44,412 nucleotides of DNA from Oligoflexia bacterium (lineage in GTDB: Bacteria; Bdellovibrionota; UBA1018), in NCBI GenBank assembly GCA_014376785.1, contig JACMQW010000081.1, forward strand, positions 1 through 44,412. Direction: 5' to 3'. Both the position numbers and the translations under genes were made by a program. The notes under the pieces were generated by a model. It had not been told where the DNA came from. It made no database searches and saw only the letters and a program-made list of their open reading frames with translations. Numbering within the stretch: position 1 is the first letter of the stretch; every line of letters begins with the position of its first letter. Below, piece after piece: positions 7,754 to 43,727 of the stretch.

Positions 7754-9223
7754 ATGTGTGGTGTGATTGGGGTTCTCGGAACTTCTCAAGCAAGCCTACG
7801 AGTCCTTCAGGGGCTCCAATTGCTGCAACACCGCGGCCAAGATGCCGCAGGCATCCTTACACACGATGAAGACGGTTTTCACTTCATACGGAATCTTGGC
7901 TTGGTAGAGTCCGTTTTCCCCAAAGACTCTCCCGAGGTCCTTAAGGGACAAGTCGCGATCGGTCACGTTCGTTACGCCACCGTTTCCAAAGCAAAGGCCG
8001 AAAGGTCGATCCCTGGAACGCCCCCACTCAGTGAGCTTCCAAACGTCCAGCCCTTCATCATGAACTTCCCGTACGGGATTGGGCTCGTGCACAACGGGAA
8101 TCTAGAAAATTTCAAAGAACTCGGGGCTCGGCTCCAATCGAAGTCTCGCCGCCACCCATTAACCCGGTCCGATAGCGAAGCGATTTTGAATCTCTTTGCC
8201 GAAGCACTTGCTGAACAAACGAAAGCAGAGACCATTTCGTTTCGTCACATCTGTGAAGCCGTCCGGGCCGTCCACCGTGAAGCGGTCGGATCCTACTCCG
8301 TGGTCATTATGATCGCAGGTTATGGTTTGATCGCATTCCGAGATCCACTGGGTCTTAGGCCGCTCGTTTTTGGAAAGCGGCGCGAAGCCGACGGGAAGAA
8401 CTCGTACCTTTTTGCTTCTGAAAGTACGGTTGCGCAGTTTCTGGACTACACCGAATGTGTCGACGTGGGCGCCGGGGAACTGATCGCAACCACTCTGGCG
8501 GGCGAGGTGTTCCGCGCTCGCATCGTAGAAGAAAAATCACGCCCCTGCATGTTTGAATGGGTGTATTTCGCCAGCCCGCAAACCGAATGGGAAGGCGTTC
8601 CGGTTTACAACGCCCGCATTCACCTGGGTCGGAACGTCGCGAGAAAAATCCGGGAAGAAATTTCCGCTGGCCGCATTCAACCGGATTTAATCGTCCCCGT
8701 TCCTGAAACGGCAAGAATCGCGGCAATTTCACTTTCAGAAGAACTCGGCATTCCCTACCGCGAAGTTTTAATCAAAAATCGCTACATCTCGCGTACTTTT
8801 ATTCTCGACACTCAAGACAAACGAGAAAAAGCCGTTCAGTTGAAACTCTCCCCGGTCGAAAGCGAAATTCGCGGGAAGAGAATCATGCTCGTCGACGATT
8901 CGATCGTTCGCGGAACGACTTCTAAGAAACTGATCGCACTCGTACGGGCCTGCGGCGCCAAAGAAGTCTATTTCGTTTCGACCGCACCGCCGATTCGTTA
9001 TCCTTGCCATTACGGAATTGATTTTCCGAATGCAAACGAGCTCATCGCTCACGACCGAAGTGACACAGAAATAGAAAAAGCCTTAGGCGCAGACCGCGTG
9101 ATTTATCAATCGGTGGACGATCTCGTGTCGGCCCTGCAGCCCATTCCGGGATCTGGCCGAAAAGAAGTCACTCCTTGCTTAGCGTGCTTAAACCGCGAAT
9201 ATCCCACCGCCCAAAAATTATGA
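7754..9223 (+). CDS. purF: Amidophosphoribosyltransferase
   Basis: Makes 5-phosphoribosylamine from PRPP and glutamine, the committed step of purine synthesis. The N-terminal glutaminase starts directly with MCGVIGV, so Cys2 becomes the nucleophile after removal of Met and there is no propeptide. LQHRGQDAAG and HNGNLENF are typical glutaminase motifs. The phosphoribosyl part carries the PRPP loop MLVDDSIVRGTT. All four cysteines that hold the 4Fe-4S cluster in the Bacillus-type enzyme appear present: C265 (RPCMFEW), C418 (YPCHYG), and C475 and C478 (CLACL). Such clusters make the enzyme oxygen-labile. It is the first gene of the operon, and its TGA overlaps the ATG of purCD in ATGA. Confidence 0.96.
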   Translation: MCGVIGVLGTSQASLRVLQGLQLLQHRGQDAAGILTHDEDGFHFIRNLGLVESVFPKDSPEVLKGQVAIGHVRYATVSKAKAERSIPGTPPLSELPNVQPFIMNFPYGIGLVHNGNLENFKELGARLQSKSRRHPLTRSDSEAILNLFAEALAEQTKAETISFRHICEAVRAVHREAVGSYSVVIMIAGYGLIAFRDPLGLRPLVFGKRREADGKNSYLFASESTVAQFLDYTECVDVGAGELIATTLAGEVFRARIVEEKSRPCMFEWVYFASPQTEWEGVPVYNARIHLGRNVARKIREEISAGRIQPDLIVPVPETARIAAISLSEELGIPYREVLIKNRYISRTFILDTQDKREKAVQLKLSPVESEIRGKRIMLVDDSIVRGTTSKKLIALVRACGAKEVYFVSTAPPIRYPCHYGIDFPNANELIAHDRSDTEIEKALGADRVIYQSVDDLVSALQPIPGSGRKEVTPCLACLNREYPTAQKL

Positions 9224-11649
9224 CGAACCGGAATAACCCCCTTCCAAAAACTGTCGCTGATTTGCCACTCTTGAAAAGGGGTAGCGTAAAAAACCTCCGC
9301 GGGCCGCTCCCCAGCGGAGAAATCGTTTTCGAATTCACGGATGATTTCTCGGTTTTCGACTGGGGAAAGATGCCAGATGCGGTTCCCGAAAAAGGACGCT
9401 CCCTGCTCAGATTAGCGAGCCATTTTTTCCGCGACTTGGGACATCCCGTTTCTTGGCGTGAATTTTTCGCAACCGAAAAAGCTAAGCAGGCGATGAGCTT
9501 GCTTTCAAGCGACCGTACGAATTCGGCGGCTGCACTAAAGGCGGAACTCGAGTCCATCGGCATGAGGTCTTGTTACCGTGGACTCTATCCGGAAGGCTCG
9601 ACCCCTCTCACAGCAGAAGGGGTCCGAGTCGAACGACTTGAAATCATCGAGCCCATCCGACTCTCAAAAGAAGCCGCACAAAAGAGGGGTTCTGCGTATG
9701 ATTACGATTTACCGAACAATTCTGCAGATCGAGTCGACCCTCGCGGCGCCCTGATTCCGCTCGAAGTGGTCTTCCGCCATGGTCTGACGAACAACTCCTC
9801 TTACTTCGAGCGTAACCCAGAAACTCCGCTGAAACAGGGCGACCGCTTTCCATCACCACTCATCGAATTTTTCACGAAATTAGAACCTTCCGACCGCTTT
9901 ATTGCCACGGAAAGCGAAGCCCTGATCGTGGGTCGACTGAGTCCTCCCCGCCTGATCGAAATTCGACTGCGCTCCATTCTCCTCTCGCTTTGGCTGGAAC
10001 ACACTTGCGCGGTTCGCGATCTCGAACTCGTGGATGGAAAGTTCGAATGGGGACTCGATGCCGAAGGTCGCATGATCCTCGCAGACGCAATCGGTCCGGA
10101 TGAACTCCGCTTGATGGAACTTCGCGGATCGGCGAAAAATCCTGAGCGCCTCTCGAAGGAATTTCTGAGAGAATATTACCGCGACTCAAAATGGTTTGCG
10201 GAGATTACCGAACTGAAGAAAAAAGCTCTCGCCCCCGGATGGCAAAAAACGATTCGCCAACCGGTTCCCCACCTCCCGACAGAGGGCTTACAGAAAGCCA
10301 CCTCTCTCTACCGAAAGCTCGAACGCCGGTTCCGACCGGAAAATGTGCTTTTGTTTGGGAGCGGCGGGCGGGAACACGCACTTGCCCGAAAGCTTCTCGA
10401 GTCTGCGAACTTATCGACCCTCCACTGGGCACCCGGACAAGACGCCGCGGTCGTCCAACTTGAAGCGATGTTGAAAGCAGGCCCGCTGAAAGGCGGAGCA
10501 AGAAAGCGCATCGTCCGGTGGAAAGATGCCCCTTGGAACTCCCAGCAAACCGAAAAATTAATCTCCTTGGCGCGGGATCACGCGATTACCTTGGTTATTT
10601 TTTCTCAGGACGCTGACTTGGCAAGCGGCGCTGCAGACCACTTCCGAGATGCGGGTTTCCCGGTTTTCGGTCCTTCGATGCAATCGTCCCGAATCGAGTG
10701 GAGTAAATCCTTCGCAAAAGAAATTTGTAAATCAGCTGGTGTTCCATCGCCGAAATCTTTTTCGGTACAAGGAATTCCTGCAGCATCCGCCCAACTGGGT
10801 TCGCTCGCATGGACTGACGAAGTCCAATGGGTTCTGAAAGCCGACGGCCTAGCCCTTGGCAAAGGAGTCGTGGTCGCTCAGTCTAAAGAAGAAGCAATCG
10901 CTGCTCTCCCCGACCTCGCTCGCTTCGGAAATGCATTTTTAATCGAAGAGCGCGTAAAGGGAGTGGAGTCATCCTGGTTTGCATTCGCGGACGGCGAAAC
11001 CTTTTCGCTTCTCGATCCCGCACGCGATTACAAACGCCTCGGAGAAAACCAAACGGGGCCTAACACTGGGGGAATGGGATCGGTCTCACCTCTGCCTGAG
11101 TTTAATTCTGAGCTGCGCGAACGCATTCGCTCGGAAGTCTTTACGCCTATCTTCGCGGAACTGAAAAGGCGGGGCGTGAAGTACCAGGGCCTGCTTTACG
11201 CGGGGTTGATGATCGATGGCGAAAGCTTGAATGTTCTCGAATTTAATGCACGCTTCGGGGATCCGGAGACCCAAGCCCTGCTCCCTCGGATGCAAGGTGA
11301 TTTACTCGAATGGATGGGAGCGATCGCGGGCGGTACGTTAGTCGATTATCCTCGGGACGTTCCTTTCACTGATGATTTTGCGGTCTATGTGGTCGCTGCC
11401 GCGAGTGGATATCCCGTAAATCCGAACTTAGGCGAAACCACTCCGTTCACGGAATCCCTCATTTCCAAAGATGACTACCGCTTCGCTGGACTGACCGAAA
11501 AATCAGGACATTTCGTCGTTTCGGGCGGTCGGGTTTTCGGTGCGCTGGGGCGCGGGAATACCGTCGGAGCGGCGAGAGCGGATGCCTATGCGAAGCTTGA
11601 ACTCGGGCTCTTCCCGGGCGCTCAGTTTCGAAAAGATATCGGACTATGA
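9220..11649 (+). CDS. purCD: PurC-PurD fusion: SAICAR synthetase / GAR synthetase
   Basis: An 809-residue bifunctional protein. Residues 1 to about 350 are SAICAR synthetase (PurC): RGSVKNLRGPL, FEFTDDFSVFDWGKMPD, LIPLEVVFRHGLTNNSS and LVDGKFEWGLD follow the family order, although this PurC is longer than the usual 240-300 residues. Residues from about 374 are GAR synthetase (PurD): NVLLFGSGGREHALARKL, an ATP-grasp lysine region WVLKADGLALGKGVVV, TGPNTGGMGSVSP and LNVLEFNARFGDPETQA. It therefore carries steps 2 and 8 of the ten-step pathway, which are not consecutive. The ATG at 9220 overlaps the purF stop and gives the PurC start; an in-frame codon at 9175 lies inside purF. Its own stop overlaps purN. 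Confidence 0.93.
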   Translation: MTNRNNPLPKTVADLPLLKRGSVKNLRGPLPSGEIVFEFTDDFSVFDWGKMPDAVPEKGRSLLRLASHFFRDLGHPVSWREFFATEKAKQAMSLLSSDRTNSAAALKAELESIGMRSCYRGLYPEGSTPLTAEGVRVERLEIIEPIRLSKEAAQKRGSAYDYDLPNNSADRVDPRGALIPLEVVFRHGLTNNSSYFERNPETPLKQGDRFPSPLIEFFTKLEPSDRFIATESEALIVGRLSPPRLIEIRLRSILLSLWLEHTCAVRDLELVDGKFEWGLDAEGRMILADAIGPDELRLMELRGSAKNPERLSKEFLREYYRDSKWFAEITELKKKALAPGWQKTIRQPVPHLPTEGLQKATSLYRKLERRFRPENVLLFGSGGREHALARKLLESANLSTLHWAPGQDAAVVQLEAMLKAGPLKGGARKRIVRWKDAPWNSQQTEKLISLARDHAITLVIFSQDADLASGAADHFRDAGFPVFGPSMQSSRIEWSKSFAKEICKSAGVPSPKSFSVQGIPAASAQLGSLAWTDEVQWVLKADGLALGKGVVVAQSKEEAIAALPDLARFGNAFLIEERVKGVESSWFAFADGETFSLLDPARDYKRLGENQTGPNTGGMGSVSPLPEFNSELRERIRSEVFTPIFAELKRRGVKYQGLLYAGLMIDGESLNVLEFNARFGDPETQALLPRMQGDLLEWMGAIAGGTLVDYPRDVPFTDDFAVYVVAAASGYPVNPNLGETTPFTESLISKDDYRFAGLTEKSGHFVVSGGRVFGALGRGNTVGAARADAYAKLELGLFPGAQFRKDIGL

Positions 11650-12266
11650 ATCGAACGATGAAAGAGAAGAAGATCATTGTCCTGACTTCCGGTCGCGGCA
11701 GTAATTTTAGGGCTCTCATCCAAGCCATCGAATTGGGAAAGTTGAACGCGACAATCCATGCTCTCGGAACCTCAACTCCCGGTAGCGGTGCCGTTAAAAT
11801 CGCGAATGATGCCGGCATTCCGGTGCTGATAAGACCTTCCGAAACAGAGCTCACGCAGTTCGTGCGAGAAAACTCCGTGGACGCAGTGGTGCTCGCGGGC
11901 TACCTGAAAATTCTCTCTCGCGAATTCATAGACGCCCTCCGTGATGCTCGCGGGGTTTCCCGCATCGTGAATATTCATCCCTCGCTCCTCCCGGCATTTC
12001 CCGGATTAAACTCCTATCGACAGGCTTTCGAACACGGAGTGGCCATTACGGGCGCGACGGTCCACCTGGTCGAGCCGGCCGTAGACAGCGGTCCTATCCT
12101 GGACCAAAGTAGTTTTAGAATCGATGAAATGAAATCAACCGAAGAGGTCGAATCACGCGGGCTCGAAGTGGAACATTCTCTTTATGCCTCCACCCTGAAT
12201 TGGTTCATGGGCGGAGAATATACCATTGAAAAACGGGGAGCTCGAATCCATGTCGCCCGCAGTTAA
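11646..12266 (+). CDS. purN: Phosphoribosylglycinamide formyltransferase
   Basis: Transfers a formyl group from 10-formyltetrahydrofolate to GAR, step 3 of purine synthesis. A 206-residue protein of normal family size. Visible motifs are the phosphate loop SGRGSNFRAL, the catalytic NIHPSLLPAFPG (N109 and H111) and the late aspartate D147 in EPAVDSGPILDQ. It overlaps purCD by ATGA at 11646; a second ATG lies five codons in. Its last 17 bases run past the start of purL, so the two are tightly coupled. There is no sign of the formate-dependent PurT in this window. Confidence 0.96.
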   Translation: MNRTMKEKKIIVLTSGRGSNFRALIQAIELGKLNATIHALGTSTPGSGAVKIANDAGIPVLIRPSETELTQFVRENSVDAVVLAGYLKILSREFIDALRDARGVSRIVNIHPSLLPAFPGLNSYRQAFEHGVAITGATVHLVEPAVDSGPILDQSSFRIDEMKSTEEVESRGLEVEHSLYASTLNWFMGGEYTIEKRGARIHVARS

Positions 12267-15200
12267 GCCAAATTCTTTTCTTGCCGAGCGATTCGAACTC
12301 TTTCCCTGGTCCGATGACCTCGATGTCCACGCACGACGCATTCATTCCGATTTCCTCCGAGAAAATCCCGATGTCAAGCCGGCGGATTTTAAAATCGAAA
12401 CCGCGAAAGCTTACGTCCTCTTCCACAGCGGGATCGACGACGTTCAGGAAATCGGGGAAGAGATCCTACTGAACCCGGTGCTCGACCGGGCGACGGCGCC
12501 GAGCGGATGGCGCCCGTCTTCTGAAAACGCATCGCGAGTGATCGAACGGCGCTACCGTCCGGGTATGACCGATAATTCCGCGCGAGCCTTCGAAGAAGCT
12601 CTGGGAATTCGCTTATCTGTTCCGAGGTTAAATCCTGCTTTTACGGCTCACCGAATGGATCTTTTCCGCATTAGGGCAGGAAACCAGAAGTTACTCGATC
12701 GAATCGAGGCCACTCTCTCGCATCCTCTCTTGCACGTCGCCCGAACGTTGGAAGAAAAATCTTGGTCCGACCGAAAAGATCTCGAGCGACTCCGCGAGCT
12801 TTTCCCCGAAGAAAATAAATCTGCCGCGAAAATTTTGGACTACCATGCTCCGACATTTGAGATTCGGGAGTTAGATTCCGCGACTTTAGAAAAAGCTTCA
12901 AAAGATCATCTCTGGGCGCTTTCTCTGAAAGAAATGCAAACCGTGCAAGCCCATTTCGCGAAGACCGGTCGCAATCCCACCCTGGGAGAGATGGAAGTCA
13001 TCGCACAAACCTGGTCTGAGCACTGCAAACACAAAATTTTTCGCGGAACGATTCACTTTGAAGGTCCCGAAAGCATTCCCGACGGCTACCCGAAAATCGA
13101 AATTCCGAAGACCACGCCCGGACTCTTCCGAACCACAATAAAGGCCGTGACCGACGCCTGTCCGAAACCTTGGCTCCTCTCCGTCTTTAGCGATAATGCA
13201 GGCATTCTGGCATTCACACCGCAGGACGCAGTCTGCATTAAAGTCGAAACTCACAATTCCCCTTCTGCGATCGATCCGTTCGCAGGCGCCATCACGGGAA
13301 TCGGCGGCGTTCACCGAGACATCATCGGAACCGGGTTCGGAGCGAAACCGCTTTTCAATCTCGATGTCTTCTGTGTGGCACCGGCCAGGTTCGACACCGA
13401 TCGTCCGGACGGCATCTTCCCACCGAGCAGAATTCTTGAGGGCATCCGAGCGGGGGTGGAGGCTGGCGGAAATCCCGCCGGCATTCCGACCATTGCCGGG
13501 GCTTTGGTGTTTGATAAATCCTACCTCGGAAAACCGCTCGTATTCTGCGGCTCGGGGGGGGTTTTACCTCGGGAAATCGAACTTCACCCGCTCGTGCGTT
13601 GTGAGAAAAAAGAAATCTTATCTGGGGACCGAATCGTCATCGTCGGCGGCCGAGTCGGGCGTGACGGCATCCACGGTGCGACTTTCAGTTCGCAAGCCCT
13701 CGACACCTCCGACGCATTCCTTCTGAACTCAAGCGTCGTCCAGCTCGGAGATCCCTTCACGCAAAAGCGGGCGCTCGATTTTATTTTGAAAGCGAGAGAC
13801 CAAGGTCTTTTCCGAACCCTCACCGATAACGGAGCGGGTGGACTTTCGTCTTCGATCGGCGAACTGGCGACACTTTCAAACGGTGCCAAACTCGATTTGA
13901 CGAATGCGCCTTTGAAAGCCATGGACCTCCGGCCCGAAGAAATTTTGATCAGCGAGTCGCAAGAACGCATGAGCCTCGCGGTCCCACCCGAATGTCTGGA
14001 ACGTTTTCTTTCTCTCGCAAACTCCATGCGGACAGAAGCAACCGACATGGGTGAGTTCATCGATTCAGGATTTTTTGAAGTCGTTTATCGAGGAGAAACC
14101 GTCGCCAAACTCGATCTCGAATTTCTCCATGAAGGATGTCCAAATTTAGAAATACGCGCGGTGTGGAATCCGAAAGCACTCGCTCGCCTTCCCGCACCAG
14201 TTAAGAACCTCCATTCTGACGGAGATTCGATTCGGACTCGCCTCCTGAAATTACTCGGATCAGAGAACATCCGTTCGAAAGCGTCGCTCATTCGGCAGTA
14301 CGATCACGAAGTTCAAGGGGGCTCGCTCGTAAAACCGGAGACCCAAATCAATTCTCATCGCTCGCCGAACCAATCGGGAGCCGTTCTTCTAAGGCCCGAC
14401 TCCGAAGTGGCAGCCGTCATCGGAGTCGGTATTTTGCCCGAATACTCACGGTATGATGCCTACACCATGGCCCAAGCGTCCCTCGATGAAGCGATTCGGA
14501 ACGTTCTGTGTTCAGGTGCTGAATACGGAACTTCAGACTCGGTCTTGGCTTTGCTCGATAACTTTTGCTGGCCGGATCCCCTCACAAACAGGGACTATGC
14601 GGCTGACCTCGTCCGCGCCGGATATGGACTCCGGGACGCGGCCTTGGCCCTGGAGCTTCCTTTTGTTTCCGGCAAAGACAGCATGAAGAACGACTTTCGA
14701 GGCCAGCAAAACGGGAAAGCCGTGAAAATTTCCGTATTGCCCACCGTGCTCGTCACTGCACTCGGTCGCATCCCAGACCTTGCCCGCGCACGCACCAGCG
14801 AATTTAAAAATACTGGCGAAACCGTTTACCTTCTTGGACCCGCGGCCTTTACTCTCGTCGGATCGCAATTTGAGCGCATCGGACTCCACCATGATGAAGC
14901 AAGACGGCTCCCCCTCCCAAACTGGCCACTTGCTAAAAAACTTTACGGGTGGCTAGGATCACCGGCGTCGCAAGTCTTACGTTCCTGCGCAGACATTTCC
15001 GAAGGGGGTCTGCTCACCGCAATATCCGAAGGACTCTTCGCTTACGAACTTGGGTTCACTTTCGATTCTGCGTTCAGCGAAGCTGAATCGCCTAGCTTCT
15101 TCTATGGTGAGGGATTTCACACTTTCATCGTCTCGCTAGAAGCGGATTCAAACCAAGCAGTCACCGAGAGTTGGACTGAGCTCGGTATCCCTTGGAAGCG

Positions 15201-15285
15201 GCTAGGAATGACGACGACCACTCCGAAACTGATCGTTGGAAATACCGTAATCAAAGCGAGCGACCTGGAAGGAGCTTGGCGATGA
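12250..15285 (+). CDS. purL: Phosphoribosylformylglycinamidine synthase, synthetase subunit
   Basis: Converts FGAR to FGAM with ATP and ammonia passed on from PurQ, step 4. About 1,011 residues: far longer than the small PurL (about 740) but lacking the glutaminase domain of the large type. The first 230 residues hold PurS-like segments (YVLFHSGIDDVQEIGEEIL and RRYRPGMTDNSARAFEEALG), followed by the synthetase with GEMEVIAQTWSEHCKHK, VKVETHNSPSAIDPFAG-like sequence, GGNPAGIPT, DNGAGGLSSSIGE and a second half with SGKDSMKND. So PurS appears built in, as known for several deltaproteobacterial-type PurL proteins. ATG 12250 is chosen over 12226 because GGGGAG lies nine bases before it. Confidence 0.93.
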   Translation: MSPAVKPNSFLAERFELFPWSDDLDVHARRIHSDFLRENPDVKPADFKIETAKAYVLFHSGIDDVQEIGEEILLNPVLDRATAPSGWRPSSENASRVIERRYRPGMTDNSARAFEEALGIRLSVPRLNPAFTAHRMDLFRIRAGNQKLLDRIEATLSHPLLHVARTLEEKSWSDRKDLERLRELFPEENKSAAKILDYHAPTFEIRELDSATLEKASKDHLWALSLKEMQTVQAHFAKTGRNPTLGEMEVIAQTWSEHCKHKIFRGTIHFEGPESIPDGYPKIEIPKTTPGLFRTTIKAVTDACPKPWLLSVFSDNAGILAFTPQDAVCIKVETHNSPSAIDPFAGAITGIGGVHRDIIGTGFGAKPLFNLDVFCVAPARFDTDRPDGIFPPSRILEGIRAGVEAGGNPAGIPTIAGALVFDKSYLGKPLVFCGSGGVLPREIELHPLVRCEKKEILSGDRIVIVGGRVGRDGIHGATFSSQALDTSDAFLLNSSVVQLGDPFTQKRALDFILKARDQGLFRTLTDNGAGGLSSSIGELATLSNGAKLDLTNAPLKAMDLRPEEILISESQERMSLAVPPECLERFLSLANSMRTEATDMGEFIDSGFFEVVYRGETVAKLDLEFLHEGCPNLEIRAVWNPKALARLPAPVKNLHSDGDSIRTRLLKLLGSENIRSKASLIRQYDHEVQGGSLVKPETQINSHRSPNQSGAVLLRPDSEVAAVIGVGILPEYSRYDAYTMAQASLDEAIRNVLCSGAEYGTSDSVLALLDNFCWPDPLTNRDYAADLVRAGYGLRDAALALELPFVSGKDSMKNDFRGQQNGKAVKISVLPTVLVTALGRIPDLARARTSEFKNTGETVYLLGPAAFTLVGSQFERIGLHHDEARRLPLPNWPLAKKLYGWLGSPASQVLRSCADISEGGLLTAISEGLFAYELGFTFDSAFSEAESPSFFYGEGFHTFIVSLEADSNQAVTESWTELGIPWKRLGMTTTTPKLIVGNTVIKASDLEGAWR

Positions 15286-15998
15286 AATCCGCATGGATTC
15301 TCACCGGCGACGGAATCAACTGCGAAGAAGAGTCCGCCGAGGCTTGCCGGCGCGCAGGATTCACCACTGAAATCATTCACCTCTCCGAGCTTGTGAGTCA
15401 GCCTCGTGATTTAGCTCAGTGTTCGCTGCTGGTTTTGCCCGGCGGGTTTAGTTTCGGCGATGAACTCGGATCCGGGCGCGTGCTCGCGCTGAAAATTCGC
15501 TACGAGCTCGGGTGGAACCTCACGCAGTTCGTAGACGGCGGTGGACTCGTCTTAGGGATCTGCAATGGATTCCAAACCCTCGTGGCACTCGGTGCGTTCG
15601 GAACCGGGGTCGCACTGGCTTCGAATGAGTCGGGGCGATTTTTGAACGAATGGGTGAAACTTAAGGTCGATCCCGCGATGAAAACATCTCCTTTTCTTCG
15701 GGACATCGATTCGATCGAACTCCCGATCCGGCATGGAGAGGGACGAGTTCTTTACGGTGATGGAACGGCTCCGCTCCGCGCAGCAATGACCTATGTGACC
15801 ACTCCGAATGGCAGTCACGCAGGCACAGCCGGACTCATCGATAAAACGGGACGTATTTTTGGACTCATGCCGCACCCCGAAGGTTATTTACGGGCTTCCC
15901 AACATCCGGGGAGTTTCAGAACTCCCGGGCCCGCTCATGCGGCGGGGGATGGTTTGAAAATATTTAAAAACGCTTTTCATTCTGCGAGGTCCCTATGA
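15282..15998 (+). CDS. purQ: Phosphoribosylformylglycinamidine synthase, glutaminase subunit
   Basis: Releases ammonia from glutamine for PurL. A class I glutamine amidotransferase of 238 residues with nucleophile C94 in LGICNGFQTL and the His198/Glu200 pair in MPHPEGYL. The N terminus has VLPGGFSFGDELGSG, the PurQ signature loop. The ATG at 15282 overlaps the purL stop as ATGA; an earlier in-frame ATG at 15192 lies inside purL and gives no domain sequence. Its own stop overlaps the start of purH. Length is typical for a free-standing PurQ, so PurL and PurQ must act as a complex. Confidence 0.96.
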   Translation: MKSAWILTGDGINCEEESAEACRRAGFTTEIIHLSELVSQPRDLAQCSLLVLPGGFSFGDELGSGRVLALKIRYELGWNLTQFVDGGGLVLGICNGFQTLVALGAFGTGVALASNESGRFLNEWVKLKVDPAMKTSPFLRDIDSIELPIRHGEGRVLYGDGTAPLRAAMTYVTTPNGSHAGTAGLIDKTGRIFGLMPHPEGYLRASQHPGSFRTPGPAHAAGDGLKIFKNAFHSARSL

Positions 15999-17581
15999 CT
16001 TTTCTAAAACCCCGCCGCGCCCTCCTCTCAGTATCGGATAAAACCGGACTCATCCCACTGGCGAAAGCGCTCAGCGAAAATGGATGCGTGCTCTACGCGA
16101 GCGGTGGGACACGTAAGGCGCTGCTCGAAGAAGGCCTTCCGTGTTTAGCGGTCGAAGACATTTCGGGGTCTCCGGAGGCTTTTCAGGGTCGAATGAAAAC
16201 GCTTTCGTTTTCTCTCTTCGGGGGAATACTCGCCCGTCGGGGGTCAGAAGCCGACGATGCAGACCGTGAAAAACTACGCATCCCGCTCATCGACGTGGTG
16301 GTCGTGAACTTTTACCCTTTTACTTCGGCCGGACTGAGCGCAACGAGCGATGAGCTTACCGAACTCATCGACATCGGTGGGCCGGCACTCGTCAGAGCTG
16401 GGGCAAAAAATCAAAAGGATGTTTTGGTGCTCGCGGATCTAAGCCTCTACGCGGAGACATTGGAGGAACTTAAAACTCAAGCCGGAATTTCTGCCGATCT
16501 TCGTGAAAAAGCCGCAGCAAGGGCCTGGGAATCGGTTCGTTTTTATGACGAAGCGATCGCGCGGAAGTTCGGAGCCGAGCGCGAAAGCCCCCTTCGCTAC
16601 GGAGAAAATCCGCACCAGTCCGCCACTTTCCGTCTCGCGAACGAATCCCCGATCGACTGGAAAAATCCCTGCACCGAAGCCGCGGTCTCCTATAATAATA
16701 TCTTAGATTTTTCGGCGGGCTTTCGCCTCCTCTCTGATCTCGCAAATTGGAAACCAGAGGCGGCTCATGCCGTGATCATCAAACACCAAAATCCTTGCGG
16801 AGTTGCAACCGATGCCGATGGTCGAATCGCAAACGCGCTCGACTTGGCGTGGGCGTGTGATCCGACCTCCGCATTCGGTGGATTGGTTTTGCTCTCAAGG
16901 CCTTTAGATGCGGACAGCGCGAATTTTTTACAAACGAGATTCATAGAAGGAATCGCTGCGCCTGGACTCTTTCCGGGCTCTGCGGAACTCACGGTCGTCG
17001 CCTCAAAACGTAAAAATCTGAAAGCCGTCACCATCACGCAAGTCGACTACCAAGAAAAGCAAACCACAGTTTCGGTGCCGGGTGGCACCCTCGCCCAAGC
17101 CGCGGATGCTTTCTCCTTAGAAAAATTCGAATTGAAGACCGAAGGCGTCTGGCGGGACGCCGACACGGAGCTTGCGCAGTTTGGAGTCTTGGTTGCGAAA
17201 GCGCTGAAATCAAACGCCATCGCGATCGTCGAAAATCCGACGGAAAGGTGCTTTAGACTCCTCGGGGCCGGACAGGGGCAGCCCAACCGAATCGAAGCCA
17301 TCGAAAAACTTGCGATTCCCCGCGCGCGCGCCGTTCTCATCACTGAAGCAAGATCTGGAGTGGCGTCCAGCGAAGCGTTCGTGAATGCACGGTTGTCGGC
17401 AGCCCTCTTAGTCAGCGACGCCTTTTTCCCTTTCGCAGATGCAGTCGAAGTTGCTGCCGCGGCGGGCATCAAACGCATCGTCGAACCCGGGGGGAGCATG
17501 CGAGACAACGAAGTGATCGCGCGTGCAACCGAACTAGGAGTTGAACTCGCATTCACTGGAGTTCGACACTTCCGGCATTAA
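15995..17581 (+). CDS. purH: Bifunctional AICAR formyltransferase / IMP cyclohydrolase
   Basis: Catalyses the last two steps to IMP. A 528-residue protein of normal length. Residues 1 to about 200 are the cyclohydrolase, with SVSDKTGL, YASGGTRKAL and GRMKTLSFSLFGGIL. The rest is the AICAR transformylase, with RYGENPHQSA, the catalytic pair K263-H264 in IIKHQNPCG, and DPTSAFGGLV. The C terminus ends IVEPGGSMRDNEVIARA followed by FTGVRHFRH, as in the family. It starts in an ATGA overlap with purQ. It is the last gene of the overlapping chain; purM follows after 15 bases. Confidence 0.96.
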   Translation: MTFLKPRRALLSVSDKTGLIPLAKALSENGCVLYASGGTRKALLEEGLPCLAVEDISGSPEAFQGRMKTLSFSLFGGILARRGSEADDADREKLRIPLIDVVVVNFYPFTSAGLSATSDELTELIDIGGPALVRAGAKNQKDVLVLADLSLYAETLEELKTQAGISADLREKAAARAWESVRFYDEAIARKFGAERESPLRYGENPHQSATFRLANESPIDWKNPCTEAAVSYNNILDFSAGFRLLSDLANWKPEAAHAVIIKHQNPCGVATDADGRIANALDLAWACDPTSAFGGLVLLSRPLDADSANFLQTRFIEGIAAPGLFPGSAELTVVASKRKNLKAVTITQVDYQEKQTTVSVPGGTLAQAADAFSLEKFELKTEGVWRDADTELAQFGVLVAKALKSNAIAIVENPTERCFRLLGAGQGQPNRIEAIEKLAIPRARAVLITEARSGVASSEAFVNARLSAALLVSDAFFPFADAVEVAAAAGIKRIVEPGGSMRDNEVIARATELGVELAFTGVRHFRH

Positions 17582-17596
17582 TTTCAGGAGCGGACC

Positions 17597-18685
17597 ATGA
17601 CGAAATCAAAAAAGAAAAAGACCCTCTCTTATGCGGATTCCGGAGTTGACCGGTTGGCAGCGGATCGACTGGTGGAGCGAATTAAGGTCATCACCGGTGG
17701 AAAGAAGAAGCCGAAAGCCCTGAGGTCCACCGTCGGAGGCTACGCTTCTCTCTATGAACTTTCTAAAACTCAGTGGATTGCCGCGTCGACGGACGGAGTA
17801 GGCACCAAACTCAAACTCGCGTTTGAGACAGGAAATCACGCGACCGTTGGAGAAGACTTGGTGGCGATGTCGGTGAACGATTTACTTTGTGTCGGCGCAA
17901 AACCCCTCTTTTTCCTCGATTATTTTGCGACTGGAAAACTCAAATTACAAACCACGGAATCCGTGATCTCCGGAATTCAAGCCGGCTGCGAGAAGGCAAA
18001 AGCGATCCTAGTCGGCGGAGAAACAGCCGAGATGCCAGGGTTTTATGCTCCGGGAGAATACGACCTCGCTGGCTTCGCGGTCGGAATCGTGGATCCGAAA
18101 CTTGCGCTACCGTCCGCCTCATCGAAAGCCGTGCGAGCGGGGGATCTTCTGATTGGACTGAATTCCAGTGGCCTTCACAGCAATGGCTACAGCTTAGTCA
18201 GAAAACTTCTCGATTCCTGGAAACCATCAGATACGAAACTCTCTTGGGCAAAATCGAAATCAGCATTGCTTCGCGAACTTTTAATCCCGACGCAGATTTA
18301 TACCGACGCCCTCCTCCCGGCGACCGAGAAAGGCCTTTACCGTGGGCTCGCGCACATCACCGGGTCTGGGTTTCTGAATGTTCCAAGGCTTGGCGAACAC
18401 GTTTCTTATGAAATCGATCTTCCACCGGCCGCGGAACTTCCCCGCATTTATGAATGGTTAGAAGCGACGGGAAAGGTCACGACTTATGACCGACTCACGA
18501 CCTTTAATTGTGGCCTCGGCATGATCGGCGCGGTTCGTCCCGAAGATGCGTCGGCAGTCATTCGGATTGCGAAACGCGCGGGCGTGAAAGCATCTGTAAT
18601 CGGAGAAGTCTTTCCAAATTTGAAAAAAGGCGAGTGTGTTGTGATCGTTCACACCGATGATGGACGATTTGAACTGAAAGATTAA
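17597..18685 (+). CDS. purM: Phosphoribosylformylglycinamidine cyclo-ligase
   Basis: Closes the imidazole ring to give AIR, step 5. 362 residues with the PurM/ThiL fold: SYADSGVDRLAADRLVERIK at the N terminus, STDGVGTKLKLAF, MSVNDLLCVGAKPLFFLDYF, GGETAEMPGFY and GLNSSGLHSNGYSLVRKLL. The N terminus is preceded by a basic run (TKSKKKKT). A ribosome site CAGGAG lies six bases before the ATG. This is the last intact gene of the operon; the remains of purE, which acts on the next intermediate, follow within about 40 bases. Confidence 0.95.
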   Translation: MTKSKKKKTLSYADSGVDRLAADRLVERIKVITGGKKKPKALRSTVGGYASLYELSKTQWIAASTDGVGTKLKLAFETGNHATVGEDLVAMSVNDLLCVGAKPLFFLDYFATGKLKLQTTESVISGIQAGCEKAKAILVGGETAEMPGFYAPGEYDLAGFAVGIVDPKLALPSASSKAVRAGDLLIGLNSSGLHSNGYSLVRKLLDSWKPSDTKLSWAKSKSALLRELLIPTQIYTDALLPATEKGLYRGLAHITGSGFLNVPRLGEHVSYEIDLPPAAELPRIYEWLEATGKVTTYDRLTTFNCGLGMIGAVRPEDASAVIRIAKRAGVKASVIGEVFPNLKKGECVVIVHTDDGRFELKD

Positions 18686-18723
18686 CCCAAGGAGAATACC
18701 GCTCTGACCAAAGACTTGAATAG

Positions 18724-19089
18724 ATAATCGACATCGGCGTGCATGCGGAAGTTTCTAGTGCGCACCGAACGCCAGAAAAAACCAAAGCCCTCACTCCGCA
18801 CGCGCGCGCGAATGGGGTGCGTGTTCTGATCGCGGGTGCCGTGGCCGCAGCACTTTACGCAATCGTGCAGATTCCTAAAGGGATTCCGGTCGCGACATTG
18901 GCGATTAACGGCGCCGCAAACGCCACCATCCTGGCTCTGGAAATCCTCTCAATCGAAAACGGTGCGGATGGATGGGGTGGCAGCACGCGCAACCTTGATG
19001 ACCTGCCGTCAGGAGATGAAAACCACGGCACTGGGAAAGAAAATGCCCTTATAGGATGGCCGCGAATCAAGGCGGGCAAATTCGTGTGA
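18724..19089 (+). pseudogene. purE: Decayed purE (N5-CAIR mutase) relic
   Basis: Translation of this stretch matches PurE in pieces: EVSSAHRTPE, then ANGVRVLIAGA, then YAIVQIPKGIPVATLAIN and GAANATILALEIL, all in order and in one frame. What is missing is the start (GSxSD loop, replaced by a stop at 18721) and about 35 residues between IAGA and YAIVQ, which in PurE hold the GGAAHLPGM active-site loop and the PVIGVPV strand. After about 18960 the C-terminal helix seems to continue in another frame (CRQEMKTTALGKKMPL), so a frameshift is likely. The only in-frame start is GTG at 18739. Its place straight after purM suggests the operon once ended with purE. It cannot make a working mutase; a functional purE should exist elsewhere. 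Confidence 0.8.
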
Positions 19090-19112: not shown

Positions 19113-19331
19113 TTAAGTTTTTGATTTCTCAATCGCCTTCTCAGTCGGTGCCCCCTTGGCACCCTTTTTCCTCATCTTCTCGCCACTGCCTGCGCGAATG
19201 CGCTTTTTCTTCTTTTGAATGTTTGCCCAGAGGCCTGGCTTTTTTTTCTTCGCAGATTTCTTTTTCTTCGCAGTCTTCTTTTTGACCGACTTTTTCTTAG
19301 CTGCCTTCTTCTTCATTTTTTTCCCTTTCAT
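19113..19331 (-). CDS. Small lysine-rich basic protein
   Basis: A 72-residue protein whose first half is almost only Lys, Ala, Ser and Thr (KKKAAKKKSVKKKTAKKKK), like the tails of histone H1-type bacterial proteins. The second half, GLWANIQKKKKRIRAGSG followed by EKMRKKGAKGAPTEKA, resembles a short conserved domain that I recall from phage, algal-virus and bacterial proteins of unknown function. Binding to DNA or RNA is a fair guess from charge. Start is either ATG 19331 or ATG 19316; the second has AAAGGG five bases upstream. It is convergent with the purE relic. The Phe-rich frame on the other strand is its shadow. Confidence 0.65.
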   Translation of the reverse strand: MKGKKMKKKAAKKKSVKKKTAKKKKSAKKKKPGLWANIQKKKKRIRAGSGEKMRKKGAKGAPTEKAIEKSKT

Positions 19332-36631: not shown

Positions 36632-37537
36632 ATGTGCTCAATCGCTAGAAATTCGAACTCATTACTTCGCAGGCTTGGTTTGGTTGCATTGGCTTTTGTC
36701 TGCACTTCATTCTCAGCCTATGCAGCTCGGTCGTCGGCCGACGGCGTTCGCGCCGCCGAGATGCGTGCGGAGGCCCAGCGAGAGGAACTGAAATATCTTT
36801 CGCGAAAAAACCCATTCGGGACCGCAACGCCAGCCGCAATCGATCCGATCACCAAAAAGAAGTATTCAGATGTGATCGTCGGACCTGCGTTCGACGTTCG
36901 CTATTACAGCCCGACATTCGAGACGCGAACCGATGGCGGAGATTTCGATTACTATCGATACGTGACTTTTTACGATGTGGAGCGGCGGTCTGAAAGATTT
37001 TTCCCACTGCCCATTCAAAGGCAAGATTGCTTTGACGTATCCCCTCTTTTTGCAGGCTACAACTGGTCGGATACTTACACTTGCTCGATCACCGCGGGAG
37101 TAACGGTTGAAGGCATTGGGCTGAGCAGCACTTTTACTGCGGCTAAAACAGTGGGGAACAGTCATAACCCGACACCTCAATACGGGATCGTCGCGGATTA
37201 TATTCCGATGATGGAAAAACAGGACTGGGAAGGCAGCACTTTCATCCAAACTTACAACTCGAAAACTCACAAGACCCGCTTCATTACCCGCGAACAGAAA
37301 TCGAGTGCATGGTGGGTAGGAATGTTCTTTCCTACTTTGGAACATGGAGAGTATCCGATGCCGTTCGCAGTTCAGGACGCGGATTGGACATTCTGGGTGG
37401 ATGTAAAGGTTTTAAAACGTTGCAAAAACATGCCGCCGCAAGCGGGAACCCCGACTGCCCCATCGAGCACAACGCCGAATCCGAGCGTTCGCGATGTGCA
37501 AGCTCTTCGAAATTCCGCCCCACCATTCGGAAAATAG
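36632..37537 (+). CDS. Hypothetical secreted protein
   Basis: A 301-residue protein with a signal peptide ending near SFSAYAA. The mature protein is rich in Tyr, Phe and Thr (PAFDVRYYSPTFETRTDGGD, FDYYRYVTFYDVERR) and ends in a Pro/Thr-rich tail, with three or four cysteines that may form disulfides (QDCFDVS, YTCSITAG, KRCKNMPP). No recognised family; the strand-rich look suggests a beta-sandwich in the periplasm or outside. GAGGAAG stands eight bases before the ATG, and a strong promoter precedes it, so it is probably well expressed. It is convergent with the very large gene that ends at 37596. Confidence 0.68.
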   Translation: MCSIARNSNSLLRRLGLVALAFVCTSFSAYAARSSADGVRAAEMRAEAQREELKYLSRKNPFGTATPAAIDPITKKKYSDVIVGPAFDVRYYSPTFETRTDGGDFDYYRYVTFYDVERRSERFFPLPIQRQDCFDVSPLFAGYNWSDTYTCSITAGVTVEGIGLSSTFTAAKTVGNSHNPTPQYGIVADYIPMMEKQDWEGSTFIQTYNSKTHKTRFITREQKSSAWWVGMFFPTLEHGEYPMPFAVQDADWTFWVDVKVLKRCKNMPPQAGTPTAPSSTTPNPSVRDVQALRNSAPPFGK

Positions 37538-37595: not shown

Positions 37596-40500
37596 CTACT
37601 TTGTCACGGAACTCGGCACGAATTCGTCCAGTCGGAGTGTTCTCACTCGGTACTGAGAAGGATTCGCTAGCATTCGCGTAGGATCCGCTTTTCCGAAACT
37701 TCCATCGTCATTCACGAAGAAGTCAGGCCGGCCCTTTGCTGCTTTTCGTTCGGCTTTTGCGCGTTGACTTGCGAGTTCCCAGTCTGAGACCAGGTATTCG
37801 TAGTCACTATAAGCTAAACCGATACTCTTGCGAGTATCCGCGCCCAGAAGCTTCTTCGAATTGAGAAACGTGTTTCTCAAATAAGACAGTTCGGAGACAT
37901 CGAGGTGATCGAAGAATGATACGGTTTCAGCCTCTCCGCTTCCGATGAGCTTTTGTTCGCCGCTAGTCGGGGAGAGCCGATCCATGAAAGATCGGAAGAG
38001 TTGCTCGTCACGCTTCGCGCTACTCGCCTTAGCGTAGAGCGCGAGCATCGAAGCCCGAAGTTTTTTCTCTGACTTAGAAGGCGAAAGCAGATCCCTCAGG
38101 GTCGCTTCTGATTCTAAAACCTCATCGAATTTTTCCGAATAAGCGACGGAAACGTAAAGGTCTTGGCCTTTATACTGTTCCATTTCCTGCAGCAGCCTTT
38201 CTCTCATCTGGGTCGCTTCGGCGAGATCTTGCAAATCGGCTAACTGTTTTGGATGCACTTCTTGAATGGTGCGCATGAGATTTCGAGTCGACTCTTCATG
38301 CTCATCCGCTAATTTCGAAAAGAAATTTAAGAGCACTTTTCTCTCCGGAAAAATAGCCCCGAGCTTATCGGCCATCATCACTTGCAGGCCAGCATGCGCC
38401 CTCTCCGATCCTCGAACCACCGAAACTCGCGAGCCGCGAACGACGGGAACGACCGAACGAAGGAAGTATTCCTTCAGTCCCGCTTTCACACTTCCTTTTT
38501 CTTTAATGAGTTCCGGTAGTGAGGGCGCACGCACCGCGGCTTTTAACTCATCCGAAGACGCAATGGAAAGCCGAGCAAACTTACTGGCTCCCGCGATTCC
38601 GAGCGCATGATAAAGCCCGGTCCCGACCGCTAATCCATTTAAAGGCTCCATCAAAATAGCCATGTCTGCAGATGCAAGTTGCTTATTCAGCTCTTGGTTA
38701 TCTGCGGTCATCTTCTCTCGGTTCGTCATCGGACGCCCGGCGAGTGGACCGGTTTCCATGTTTTGCACGCGGGAGTTTGCGACCTGATAGGTAAACAACT
38801 GGGGGGGGAGACGGTAATGATTTGTAGAAACCATCAGGTAGGTCTGCATCGAAAAGATCACCATGGTCGGCGTCCCGAGAAGCCACATCGTAAGGGTCCC
38901 AAATCCCCCGAAGAACGTCGTCATCGCGACGCCTGCGGACGAGAAGAACGCCGTGACGGAGGTCATCCCGAGGAGCCCGAATACAACTGGAGCAAACTGC
39001 CAAAACATCAGAAGCAGCATCGCGAGTCCGATGGCGCTCATGTAAGGATCGAGGGCTTGCAGAGCCCCTTCTTGAGTACTCCGCACGTCGGACGCGATTT
39101 GGCGGTCGTATTTCGCCAGGTCCGGATTACTCGATAGAGCATCGCGAATGCCGCTCACCGATTCAAACATTTTTCTAAAATTTCGGTCGCTCTGGTAATT
39201 TTTGATTTCTGCCTTACAGAACGTCTCTACTTTACCGAGGTCATTGCCGCTCGCTTGATCGAAAGACCAGCGAAGCGTATCGCGGTAAAATTTTTCATTC
39301 CAACCGCTCTTCGCATTCCAGGCTCGAGCCAACCGATGAAGCAAGATGGGCTCGTCTTTGGCTTCCTTTTTTCCGAATGAAAAGAATGAATCGTCTTCCT
39401 CGTTCCAACGCTCGGATGTATTTTGAATTCCGAGAATGGGTGCTTTCATGATCGCTTCTGCTTCGAGAACTTTTCCAAAAACAAGCTGATCAGTAACCGT
39501 CGCAAACATACGGTCGATCACTCGTGCGTTCGGCATCTGCATCTGAATCAACCGCTCCGTCGTCATCAGATTTCTAACCTGATCGGGATAGTAAGTCTTT
39601 TTTCGATCAAACGCCCAAGCGCCTCCTTTTTCGACGTGCATCGAAAGTCCAAGCAGCGCTAAACTCTCTCGAAAGAGTGCTAAAGCTTTTTCTTTCTCAG
39701 CATTATCCTTCGCAGCGTACTCCCCTTTATCTAGAGTGAACGATCCGTCACGACCGGTTCGAAAGTAGCCGATACGGCGCAGATGGAGTTCTCGAATCCG
39801 AGCTGCTTCGCGGTCTAATTCGGATTGATTGCGTGCTAATCTTGTTTTCGTCTTTTGTACGCCGGGAGCAACCCGCTGATTAGAGGTCGCATCCTGAACC
39901 GCGGATCGACTTTCTCTTTCCTTTGCTCGAAGCGCATCGGTCTGTTCAGAAAATTTCTTAGCCGCGAGGTCGGGATATTTATAAGCACGCGCCTCCCCAA
40001 GTTCAGTAACGAACTGGGTGTAAGCTGTTTTTGCAGCCAGGATTGCTGCCGCACTTAAATGATCCGCTTCATCCGCGACCTTTGGCTCTGGCTTCGGACA
40101 TACAACTTCTTTCGGCTCATTTTTAGCGCGCACGCGCCCGGACAAAAGAGGAACCAATGCCTTCGAGCAGGAGTTTACGGAAACGATTCCGCTCACCCCT
40201 TTACCATGTTCTGCGTCGGGAGCTTTTTTCTGGAATTCTTTCGCGAGTTCCGAAAAAAAGATTTCCATTCCATGCGACGCGAAGCGATTCGACGCGATTT
40301 CTTCCGCAATGGAAGGTTCGATGTATCCTGACTTCCCTTCCCCGAATCGGACGAGGTAATTTAATTTTTTGTAGAAAAACTGAGAAACGTGTTCCGCAGT
40401 TTTTGGGAGCTGAATAGACTTCATTCCCGCGTTTTTTGCCAAAATTCGGAATGGCGCATTCCCTAGGTAGAGAGTCGGATCCGCACTATTTTTCTTCATC

Positions 40501-42335
40501 ACTCCCAGGCGATAGGCTTCTTCGGTCAAGCAGTCCGTACGTCCCGTGATTCCACCGCGTCCAGTCGACGTCGGTCGACAGTCTGAATCCGGGCGAGAAC
40601 GGCCCTCGAGCATTCCGAAAGCTTTCGTCACTTTTTCCGCTTGTGCGGAGAGAAGAAATCCGAGGCTTCCGGATGCAGCAATGGTGCGGTAATCATCCGT
40701 CGCTTTTTCGAAGCGAAGGCTATTTTGATCATTCATGAACCCTTGGGCTGTGGGTTGCTTCAGTGCTCCGAGGACATTTCCACCCATTGCAGCAGTGAGC
40801 GCTTTCTCGAGATCTGAACGTTGAGCACTTTTCCACTGCGATTCACTTTTTGCGAGAGCTTGGTCTACTGCGAATTGTACCAGACTCGAATGCGATTTCA
40901 GCTCCGGATAGAGCGCTTGGCCCTTTTTTTCCCCACCGGTATAATGATCCGCACTAAGCGCTTTCCAAATTCCATTAATTAAGAAAGCCCGACGAAGGGC
41001 GTAGGCCTTGTCTGTGTAGCGACTGCCAACTGCAGAAATCGACATGTCATCCGCTGGGAAACTCGCACCCGAAAAAGCAACCGAAGCCGCATTGGCGCCT
41101 TCGGTATCGAGATCACTCCAACTCACCTCTTCCACGCGGCGAGCGGGCTCGCCGTAAGCTTGGCTGAGATCACCAAGTAAAGCGTCGGGTTTGTCCCGGT
41201 ACTGAGGCAACATATTCGTTTGGAAGCTAGGAAGCTGGGACAGGACTTGGAGGACGACTTCCCCGGATTGGTCCATTGATAAGAGAGGATGAGCAAGCGT
41301 TGCCGCCACTGCTTTTTCTCGACCGACGGACAAAAGATCACCGAAACGGTCATCTTGCCAAAGAGAGTCGTATGCCTCTAATGAACTGACTAAAGAGATT
41401 TTTCCAGAAGTTCTGAAGGAGACGAGGTCTGCACCGCAAGACGAAATCGGAGACTCCGCAAAATAGGTATGCCCCATCATTCGACGAATGGCCCATCGAT
41501 TAGACAGTCCTTCCCGAATCGCTGCGAACTGGAGAAGTTTCAAATATTCCGGTTTGTCTTTCGGACGTGCCAAGGCTGCGAACTCCACCATTTGCTTATC
41601 AAAGGAGTTTAAGAAAAGTTCGACTCGGGAATAGATTCCACGCGAGTCTTTCACGTGCCGGAGACTGAACTCTTTATTGAAATCTTTATGAGTACGGATG
41701 TAGGCCGCAGTTTTCGGATCGAGTTTAATATTCAGGTAATCGAGCGCGTTTGAGGAAAAACTACGCGCGCCTGAAGTCGCTAATGCCGCTTTATTTAGAC
41801 TGAGCCAACGTTGTAATTCATCTCGCTGAACGGAAGCTTCCGAACCAGAAAAGTACCTTCCGATGTTTTCTAAAAGGTAGTCAACACTATCGGTCTTGGT
41901 GATCGTCTTGAAAGCGGAGTCATGCGCAAGTCGTAAGTAGTTTGCGTAGAGTCTGGTTTGTAAGTTTGCGTAGATGACCGCGGCTTCCGCGACCGCCCGG
42001 TTCTGATCGCTAGCGACTTTTACAGTGGGGTCCAGTGCTCGGGAGAAGCTTTCTCGTGAGACTTTCCGTCCGAACTGGAATACGGAACCGTGAATCGATC
42101 GATAGACTTCGCTCTCGGGGCCGAACGTTTTTTCGTCGGGGCCGAAGAGCTCGGACTGAGTTGCCGTTTTAGGATCTTTGTTAATTTTGAAAACTTTATC
42201 GAAATCTTTTGCAAGCGTGATGGCTTCTACGACGAGGGGGTCCTTTACTTTCGCTTTTCCGAGCGTGAGTGAAAGCACCCCGCAGACGAGAAAAGTAGAG
42301 ACGGCGTATTTCCAGCGAAACTGAACTTTCTTCAA
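37596..42335 (-). CDS. Very large envelope protein with a membrane region, unknown
   Basis: A 1,579-residue protein that I do not recognise. It has a signal-like N terminus (KYAVSTFLVCGVLSLTLGKA), then about 1,050 residues of mostly helical soluble sequence with few cysteines, a hydrophobic block of about three helices at roughly 1098-1170 (IGLAMLLLMFWQFAPVVFG, then SSAGVAMTTFFGGFG, then TMWLLGTPTMVIFSMQTYL), and about 400 more helical residues. So a large domain would lie outside the cytoplasm, anchored by the late helices. The start is TTG with GAGGTG seven bases ahead. It shares strand with the lipoprotein and coiled-coil genes upstream. No repeats or catalytic motifs are visible. Confidence 0.75.
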   Translation of the reverse strand: MKKVQFRWKYAVSTFLVCGVLSLTLGKAKVKDPLVVEAITLAKDFDKVFKINKDPKTATQSELFGPDEKTFGPESEVYRSIHGSVFQFGRKVSRESFSRALDPTVKVASDQNRAVAEAAVIYANLQTRLYANYLRLAHDSAFKTITKTDSVDYLLENIGRYFSGSEASVQRDELQRWLSLNKAALATSGARSFSSNALDYLNIKLDPKTAAYIRTHKDFNKEFSLRHVKDSRGIYSRVELFLNSFDKQMVEFAALARPKDKPEYLKLLQFAAIREGLSNRWAIRRMMGHTYFAESPISSCGADLVSFRTSGKISLVSSLEAYDSLWQDDRFGDLLSVGREKAVAATLAHPLLSMDQSGEVVLQVLSQLPSFQTNMLPQYRDKPDALLGDLSQAYGEPARRVEEVSWSDLDTEGANAASVAFSGASFPADDMSISAVGSRYTDKAYALRRAFLINGIWKALSADHYTGGEKKGQALYPELKSHSSLVQFAVDQALAKSESQWKSAQRSDLEKALTAAMGGNVLGALKQPTAQGFMNDQNSLRFEKATDDYRTIAASGSLGFLLSAQAEKVTKAFGMLEGRSRPDSDCRPTSTGRGGITGRTDCLTEEAYRLGVMKKNSADPTLYLGNAPFRILAKNAGMKSIQLPKTAEHVSQFFYKKLNYLVRFGEGKSGYIEPSIAEEIASNRFASHGMEIFFSELAKEFQKKAPDAEHGKGVSGIVSVNSCSKALVPLLSGRVRAKNEPKEVVCPKPEPKVADEADHLSAAAILAAKTAYTQFVTELGEARAYKYPDLAAKKFSEQTDALRAKERESRSAVQDATSNQRVAPGVQKTKTRLARNQSELDREAARIRELHLRRIGYFRTGRDGSFTLDKGEYAAKDNAEKEKALALFRESLALLGLSMHVEKGGAWAFDRKKTYYPDQVRNLMTTERLIQMQMPNARVIDRMFATVTDQLVFGKVLEAEAIMKAPILGIQNTSERWNEEDDSFFSFGKKEAKDEPILLHRLARAWNAKSGWNEKFYRDTLRWSFDQASGNDLGKVETFCKAEIKNYQSDRNFRKMFESVSGIRDALSSNPDLAKYDRQIASDVRSTQEGALQALDPYMSAIGLAMLLLMFWQFAPVVFGLLGMTSVTAFFSSAGVAMTTFFGGFGTLTMWLLGTPTMVIFSMQTYLMVSTNHYRLPPQLFTYQVANSRVQNMETGPLAGRPMTNREKMTADNQELNKQLASADMAILMEPLNGLAVGTGLYHALGIAGASKFARLSIASSDELKAAVRAPSLPELIKEKGSVKAGLKEYFLRSVVPVVRGSRVSVVRGSERAHAGLQVMMADKLGAIFPERKVLLNFFSKLADEHEESTRNLMRTIQEVHPKQLADLQDLAEATQMRERLLQEMEQYKGQDLYVSVAYSEKFDEVLESEATLRDLLSPSKSEKKLRASMLALYAKASSAKRDEQLFRSFMDRLSPTSGEQKLIGSGEAETVSFFDHLDVSELSYLRNTFLNSKKLLGADTRKSIGLAYSDYEYLVSDWELASQRAKAERKAAKGRPDFFVNDDGSFGKADPTRMLANPSQYRVRTLRLDEFVPSSVTK

Positions 42336-43540: not shown

Positions 43541-43727
43541 TGATTCTTTCTCCATTCGTAGGTCTCTTGACTAGTCACGACCCCTGTCGCCCATCCTCGA
43601 GCACAGACTCGCTATGAATATCGTACGCGGAACGAATAAAAGTAAAAGGCGATAATTCGGGCCCATTAAATTTCCAGGCTTAGCGTCAACTTTGATGAAC
43701 CGGACTAGACGCGGATCACATCGACCA

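Follow-up and report, generated by a model that had tools for sequence, protein, structure and literature searches.

Purine biosynthesis locus with a dead purE gene

The stretch directly downstream of purM in the draft genome studied here (G000) is probably a recently dead purE gene, superseded by another purE acquired elsewhere in the genome. The window, i.e., the whole 44,412-nucleotide stretch of DNA that was analyzed, carries a pur operon, and positions 18733–19054, immediately 3' of purM (stop codon at 18683–18685), were identified as a purE pseudogene. The corresponding features are summarized in Table 1. In a Pfam search, PF00731 (AIRC) matched the open reading frame (ORF) at 18739–19089 in two stretches with an E-value of 3.8e-18. 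When 18724–19089 was codon-shuffled 1000 times and three frames were searched for each shuffle, no phmmer match to the PurE of G001, a genome of the same genus, was obtained at E ≤ 10. Against TIGR01162, the model for functional class I PurE, the remnant scored 64.5 bits, below the curated cut-off of 149.6.

Table 1. Features of the pur operon and of the purE remnant in the window.
Feature	Coordinates	Strand	Basis
purF, purC-purD fusion, purN, purL, purQ, and purH, full-length frames	7754–17581	+	Pfam matches
purM (AIR synthetase), the final pur gene with a full-length frame	17597–18685	+	PF00586 and PF02769 above cut-off
AAGGAG, Shine-Dalgarno-like leftover; no start codon at the usual spacing	18689–18694	+	Read in the sequence
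TAG ahead of purE piece 1, in frame with it	18721–18723	+	Translation
purE remnant, piece 1 (IGVHAEVSSAHRTPEKT...IAGAVAA), SAHR loop retained	18733–18849	+	Alignment to G001
In-frame internal deletion junction; 29 codons (87 nt), AHLPG...GTD block, missing	18849–18850	+	Alignment to G001
purE remnant, piece 2 (ALYAIVQIPKGIPVATLAINGAANATILALEILSIENGAD)	18850–18969	+	Alignment to G001
4-bp tandem duplication GGAT/GGAT, GGATGGAT, frameshift	18966–18973	+	DNA alignment to G001, letters
purE remnant, piece 3, C-terminal part, shifted frame	18971–19054	+	Alignment to G001

The lesions were read against the intact purE of G001. At the 5' end, the residues corresponding to the first 33 of G001 PurE were not recognizable, the start codon was absent, and the N-terminal MGSxSD was missing; at the position of the leftover AAGGAG, the DNA alignment gave AAGGAG-CAGTC-ATG for G001. 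Piece 1 comprised 39 codons and was 82% identical to residues 34–72 of G001 PurE, and piece 2 comprised 40 codons with 82.5% identity. The AAHLPG loop was lost with the block missing between them. Behind the duplication, piece 3 (27 codons) matched the C-terminal end of G001 PurE with 52% identity, and its stop codon, 19052–19054, lies at the place where G001 purE also stops. The frame of pieces 1 and 2 runs past the duplication to a stop at 19089, the end point given in the initial annotation, and the tail encoded there is unlike PurE. The initial annotation had described purE in decay behind purM, with the N terminus deleted, an active-site block of about 35 residues missing, and a frameshift likely near 18960. 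The decay, the missing N terminus, and the frameshift were all recovered in the alignment; the active-site block was indeed deleted, but its size was overestimated.

Directly behind the remnant, on the reverse strand at 19113–19331, the window holds a very lysine-rich ORF of 72 amino acids, for which no Pfam match was found at E ≤ 0.001.

The same locus in relatives

The pur operon of G001 was identical in gene content and order upstream, and a full, intact purE of 167 amino acids stood directly after purM, in the same place as the remnant. Thus, the undamaged version that the initial annotation expected in relatives was found. The PurE of G001 passed the TIGR01162 cut-off and contained the SAHR and GAG-AAHLPG motifs, and the remnant was paired with it in the tree with support of 100/100. 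The purM gene was 71% and 70% identical to those of the two congeners; the branching among G000, G001, and G002 received support of 87/51, which gave no firm order.

An ancestral purM-purE operon had also been proposed. The adjacency does exist in G001; however, purE-like sequence followed purM in only 2 of 23 purM loci (G000 and G001; tblastn, E ≤ 1e-3), and an old family-wide purM-purE operon was rejected. Among these loci, G042 offered only 3 nt after purM, which was unreadable, and G002 offered a short 576 nt. In G002, a threonine dehydratase-like gene (named by eye) was located immediately 3' of purM, and no purE match was obtained in those 576 nt at E ≤ 1e-3.

Several other observations were made in the window and in the family. 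The genes purC and purD were fused in an 824-aa frame (9175–11649; SAICAR synthetase, then GAR synthetase), the listed start of which overlaps the end of purF, and the fusion in G001 was 61% identical. An ORF of 1579 amino acids on the reverse strand (37596–42335) and its neighbors (36632–37537 and 42557–43555) had no Pfam match at E ≤ 0.001. Neither purE nor purM was found in five genomes of the same family (G013, G015, G017, G018, and G020), four of which are 93–97% complete, and these organisms may no longer make purines de novo.

Age of the decay and constraint on the remnant

Pieces 1 and 2 together (79 codons) were compared with G001, giving 82% identity and a pN/pS of 0.156. The corresponding pN/pS values were 0.313 for purM (70% identity), 0.184 for purF, and 0.319 for purH, and five intact purE pairs ranged from 0.145 to 0.272. 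As the remnant falls among these intact genes, most of its divergence arose while purE still worked. The remnant departed from the other PurE rows at 2 of 19 near-invariant columns (those conserved in ≥97% of the other rows, with G005 left out), both of which were unvarying in 203 other PurE rows, and G001 PurE departed at none of the 19. On this comparison of sequences, the decay looks recent.

The low pN/pS fits a recent death, and selection acting on a short product would give a low value as well. A new short protein with a new function, translated from the 116-aa ORF at 18739–19089, was accordingly weighed; its frame is open over 116 codons. However, the listed start, GTG at 18739, has no Shine-Dalgarno sequence nearby; AAGGAG lies 44 nt upstream with an in-frame TAG in between. 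Moreover, approximately one third of the ORF is the tail unlike PurE, and the two unvarying columns were changed. The initial annotation had named relatives keeping the same short form as the sign of a new small protein, and none was found in the 58 genomes searched: purE is full length in G001 and absent from this place in G002. Given the missing start signal, the tail unlike PurE, and the lack of this short form elsewhere in the 58 genomes, the small-protein reading was considered very improbable and was rejected in favor of a dead purE.

An intact purE-purK pair on another contig

The supposition that the cell must have another purE agrees with the rest of the genome. One intact purE was found in G000 (G000:C61:1271-1711), followed by a purK that overlaps it by a few bases. 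The PurE encoded on this contig, C61, was grouped with E. coli PurE and the PurE of G039, a genome from another family within the same order, with support of 99/96 and apart from the remnant. Similarly, its PurK was grouped with that of G039 (100/99), and the PurK of G002 fell in a clade with most family members. The PurK tree was built from 24 rows out of 30 purK loci, without G006 (a frame of 1092 amino acids), G016, G029, G036, G044, and G053. Among the genomes compared, G039 provided the nearest match to the C61 pair, with a purE-purK of the same type and gene order. Since the C61 proteins were grouped with E. coli and G039 and not with their own family, the pair was probably acquired from outside the family. 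A single acquisition common to G000 and G002 was rejected because the PurK clades differ and the gene order is purE-purK on C61 and purK-purE in G002. No empty purE-purK insertion site was found; G022 and G025 share with C61 just a FadL-like gene, plus chance-like fragments.

Whether C61 belongs to this genome matters for the argument. C61 is 5.2 kb long and short, the genome is a draft of 103 contigs with an estimated contamination of 2.15%, and the FadL-like gene (PF03349) next to the pair was matched in 3 of 58 genomes, including G000 itself, and in neither G001 nor G002; C61 might therefore be mis-binned. The deletions could be assembly errors, or C61 could be a contaminant and the cell truly without PurE. 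However, a single gene carries three separate lesions while the operon upstream of it is intact, and the loss of a start codon together with an 87-nt in-frame deletion is atypical of base-calling errors. The best match of the FadL-like gene (66%) was in G022, a genome of the same family, and the tetranucleotide correlation of C61 with the window was 0.885, compared with 0.889–0.930 among pieces of the window and 0.665–0.874 for seven stretches from other genomes. Both fit the genome, and C61 probably belongs to it. A cell without any PurE would also be hard to explain, as the rest of the pur operon is intact. An artefact of either kind was thus judged improbable.

The preferred reading remains that a second purE took the place of the operonic one. 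The ancestor would have had the arrangement of G001, with purE last in the pur operon. The acquisition of purE-purK would have lifted selection from the old operonic purE. That gene would then have been eroded, twice by deletion and once by slippage that duplicated 4 bp, while the upstream genes kept their frames.

Absence of purK and residues 51 and 79

The purE and purK searches covered the relatives set of 58 genomes and were repeated on 46 genomes of the class, with purK counted as present at E ≤ 1e-20. In the relatives set, a true purE was found in 31 of 58 genomes, and five of these 31 had purE without purK at the cut-off (G001, G004, G007, G019, and G035). In G001, no purK was detected at E ≤ 1e-20, and the best match to the purK model had an E-value of 2.5e-4; as this genome is 93% complete, a purK could have been missed. 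The absence of purK from a draft can be a gap, which is unlikely for all five genomes together (86–98% complete).

Two positions of PurE, 51 and 79 in E. coli numbering, separated these groups. The numbering was counted on the E. coli sequence, and the residues were taken from the alignment. Thr was found at position 51 in all five purK-less relatives and in piece 1 of the remnant, compared with Met, Leu, or Val in the 26 genomes with purK. Position 79 was Val or Phe in the five and Met in 25 of the 26, the sole exception being G011, a class genome with purK and Phe79. G001 PurE has Thr51 and Val79, position 79 is deleted in the remnant, and the PurE of G005 has Met at both positions. The five purK-less PurEs and the remnant were grouped together in the class tree, with weak support of 29/87 from a bootstrap that had not converged, and the G001-remnant pair was placed on a long branch (2.11).

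The prediction was tested on a draw from the phylum of 191 genomes that were ≥90% complete. Among these, 113 had a true purE, and 91 of the 113 were new. In the 86 new genomes with purK, Met79 was present in 86/86 and Thr51 in 0/86. The remaining five, without purK, had a residue other than Met at position 79 in four cases (Val, Ile, Ala, and Val) and Thr51 in two. The purK-less genome with a Met/Met PurE, G181, has a purE that begins approximately 110 nt from a contig end. When both sets were combined, non-Met79 was found in 9/10 purK-less and 1/112 purK-bearing genomes, and Thr51 in 7/10 and 0/112, respectively.

A FastTree tree of the PurE rows gave 10–13 changes of each trait. The tree-corrected test of the markers against purK showed no significance, with five independent pairs on supported branches: approximately one in the expected direction, 0.2 (Met79) or 0 (Thr51) in the opposite direction, and approximately four with no difference. 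G005 and L166 (a duplicate of G019) were left out of this test, and L127, L133, and L140, the only match of which was a weak paralog, carried no purK label. The association is thus largely clade-wide, a property of the subfamily more than of repeated change. As the marker is carried mostly by that subfamily, the association is strong in counts and weak as evidence of cause.

Near-complete one-contig genomes in family f11 (genus g62; G136, G151, and G202, among others) gave no match over the purE cut-off. Their only matches, near 1e-28, were frames of approximately 240 amino acids, which may be LarB-like.

The lost PurE could have made CAIR without PurK, either by carboxylating AIR directly with CO2 or by using N5-CAIR that had arisen spontaneously, a proposal to which we give about even chances. 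It was derived from the sister gene in G001, a genome without detectable purK, and from the marks of a mostly purK-less subfamily in both proteins. The dead gene and its displacement would stand equally if the operonic PurE had been a normal N5-CAIR mutase working with an ancestral purK, the redundant purE being lost later. G001 PurE carries SAHR and HLPG, both motifs of class I, and passes TIGR01162, which speaks for such a mutase, as does the family-type purK-purE carried by the congener G002. However, G001 has that PurE alone, with no purK at E ≤ 1e-20, and the G001-remnant pair, besides its long branch, carries the marker residues of a subfamily in which purK is mostly lacking. A normal mutase was therefore regarded as rather unlikely, although a serious alternative.

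Thr51-type PurE beyond the phylum

Class I-like PurEs of the Thr51 type were sought with a sequence pattern in named genomes, which gave at least 119 stretches, with 80 loci listed. Among these 80 loci, a residue other than Met was found at position 79 in 78, and it was Val in 65. Fifty genomes were chosen by eye from the listed loci for variety and tested for purK; as they were selected for Thr51, they are not an unbiased sample, and 43 of them had no match at E ≤ 1e-20. In three of the seven with a match, the sole match was near 1e-52, which is the strength of second matches elsewhere. G065 and G086 contained a second, Met-type PurE adjoining purK. In G097 and G107, the Thr/Val PurE itself adjoins purK, and these are true exceptions. 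Names among the listed loci include actinobacteria, acidobacteria, and Burkholderiaceae. Many of the organisms named there are anaerobes, which would fit high CO2.

A purK-like ATP-grasp paralog, with E-values of approximately 1e-52 to 1e-60, was observed in G085, G089, and G095 and as the second match in many phylum genomes. It occurs beside a better purK match or in place of one.

We tentatively propose, at somewhat less than even chances, that PurEs with Thr51 and mostly Val, Ala, Phe, or Ile at position 79 form a widespread bacterial subfamily, class I in sequence, that evolved within this class into an AIR carboxylase needing no PurK. In the genus studied here, CAIR synthesis would then have switched in the opposite direction, with ATP and bicarbonate taking over from CO2 as its driver, and the residue pair would be a marker of the route that can be read from genomes. 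A genome lacking purK does not necessarily encode an altered PurE because E. coli PurE is able to work without PurK at high bicarbonate (PMC3261824). Neither the Thr51/Met79 marker nor this purE pseudogene was found described in the literature that our search covered.

Comparison with known systems

Two classes of PurE serve as the frame of comparison. Class II PurE is an AIR carboxylase, as in animal PAICS and the PurE of Treponema denticola, and it works without PurK; for the G001 type, the same would follow from the genomic pattern. The remnant is homologous to class I PurE, the N5-CAIR mutase (TIGR01162, PF00731). However, the remnant is broken, and the intact G001 type differs in having Thr51 and Val79 and in coming from a genome where a PurK to partner it was not detected. 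Human PAICS, a class II PurE, has the motif SAHK (Ser301-Ala-His-Lys304; PMC9376930). In contrast, both G001 PurE and the remnant have SAHR and not SAHK, and G001 retains the class I AAHLPG loop, which places neither in class II.

Class I-like PurE without PurK was previously described in methanogens, Desulfurococcales, and some Thermococci, where the use of CO2, spontaneous N5-CAIR, or another enzyme was left open (PMC3261824). Much the same situation is indicated for Methanomassiliicoccales in a further study (PMC4153887). The G001 type likewise looks like class I without purK, and it is bacterial. In Archaeoglobus, purE was displaced through horizontal transfer by a class II-like enzyme without PurK (PMC3261824). 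Here, too, a purE of another lineage probably replaced the resident one; however, the direction would be opposite, and a remnant of the old gene persists.

A pseudogene by itself is ordinary. The value of this one lies in its setting, in which three species of one genus represent three states of the same purine step: G001 with a PurE and no detectable PurK, G000 with a dead PurE and a PurE-PurK of another lineage, and G002 with a family-type PurK-PurE. Moreover, two residues distinguish most purK-less genomes of the phylum sample from those with purK, and this marker makes testable how class I-like PurE functions without purK, the question left open in PMC3261824. As PurK and PurE inhibitors are described in a review of antibacterial targets (PMC10912719), knowing which bacteria bypass PurK would be useful. 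The remnant may be the trace of a route that did not need PurK and gave way to one that does, namely ATP- and bicarbonate-driven CAIR synthesis. Judged from the genomes compared, a change within the genus in how one purine step is performed is likely, and residues 51 and 79 are a candidate marker of PurK independence.
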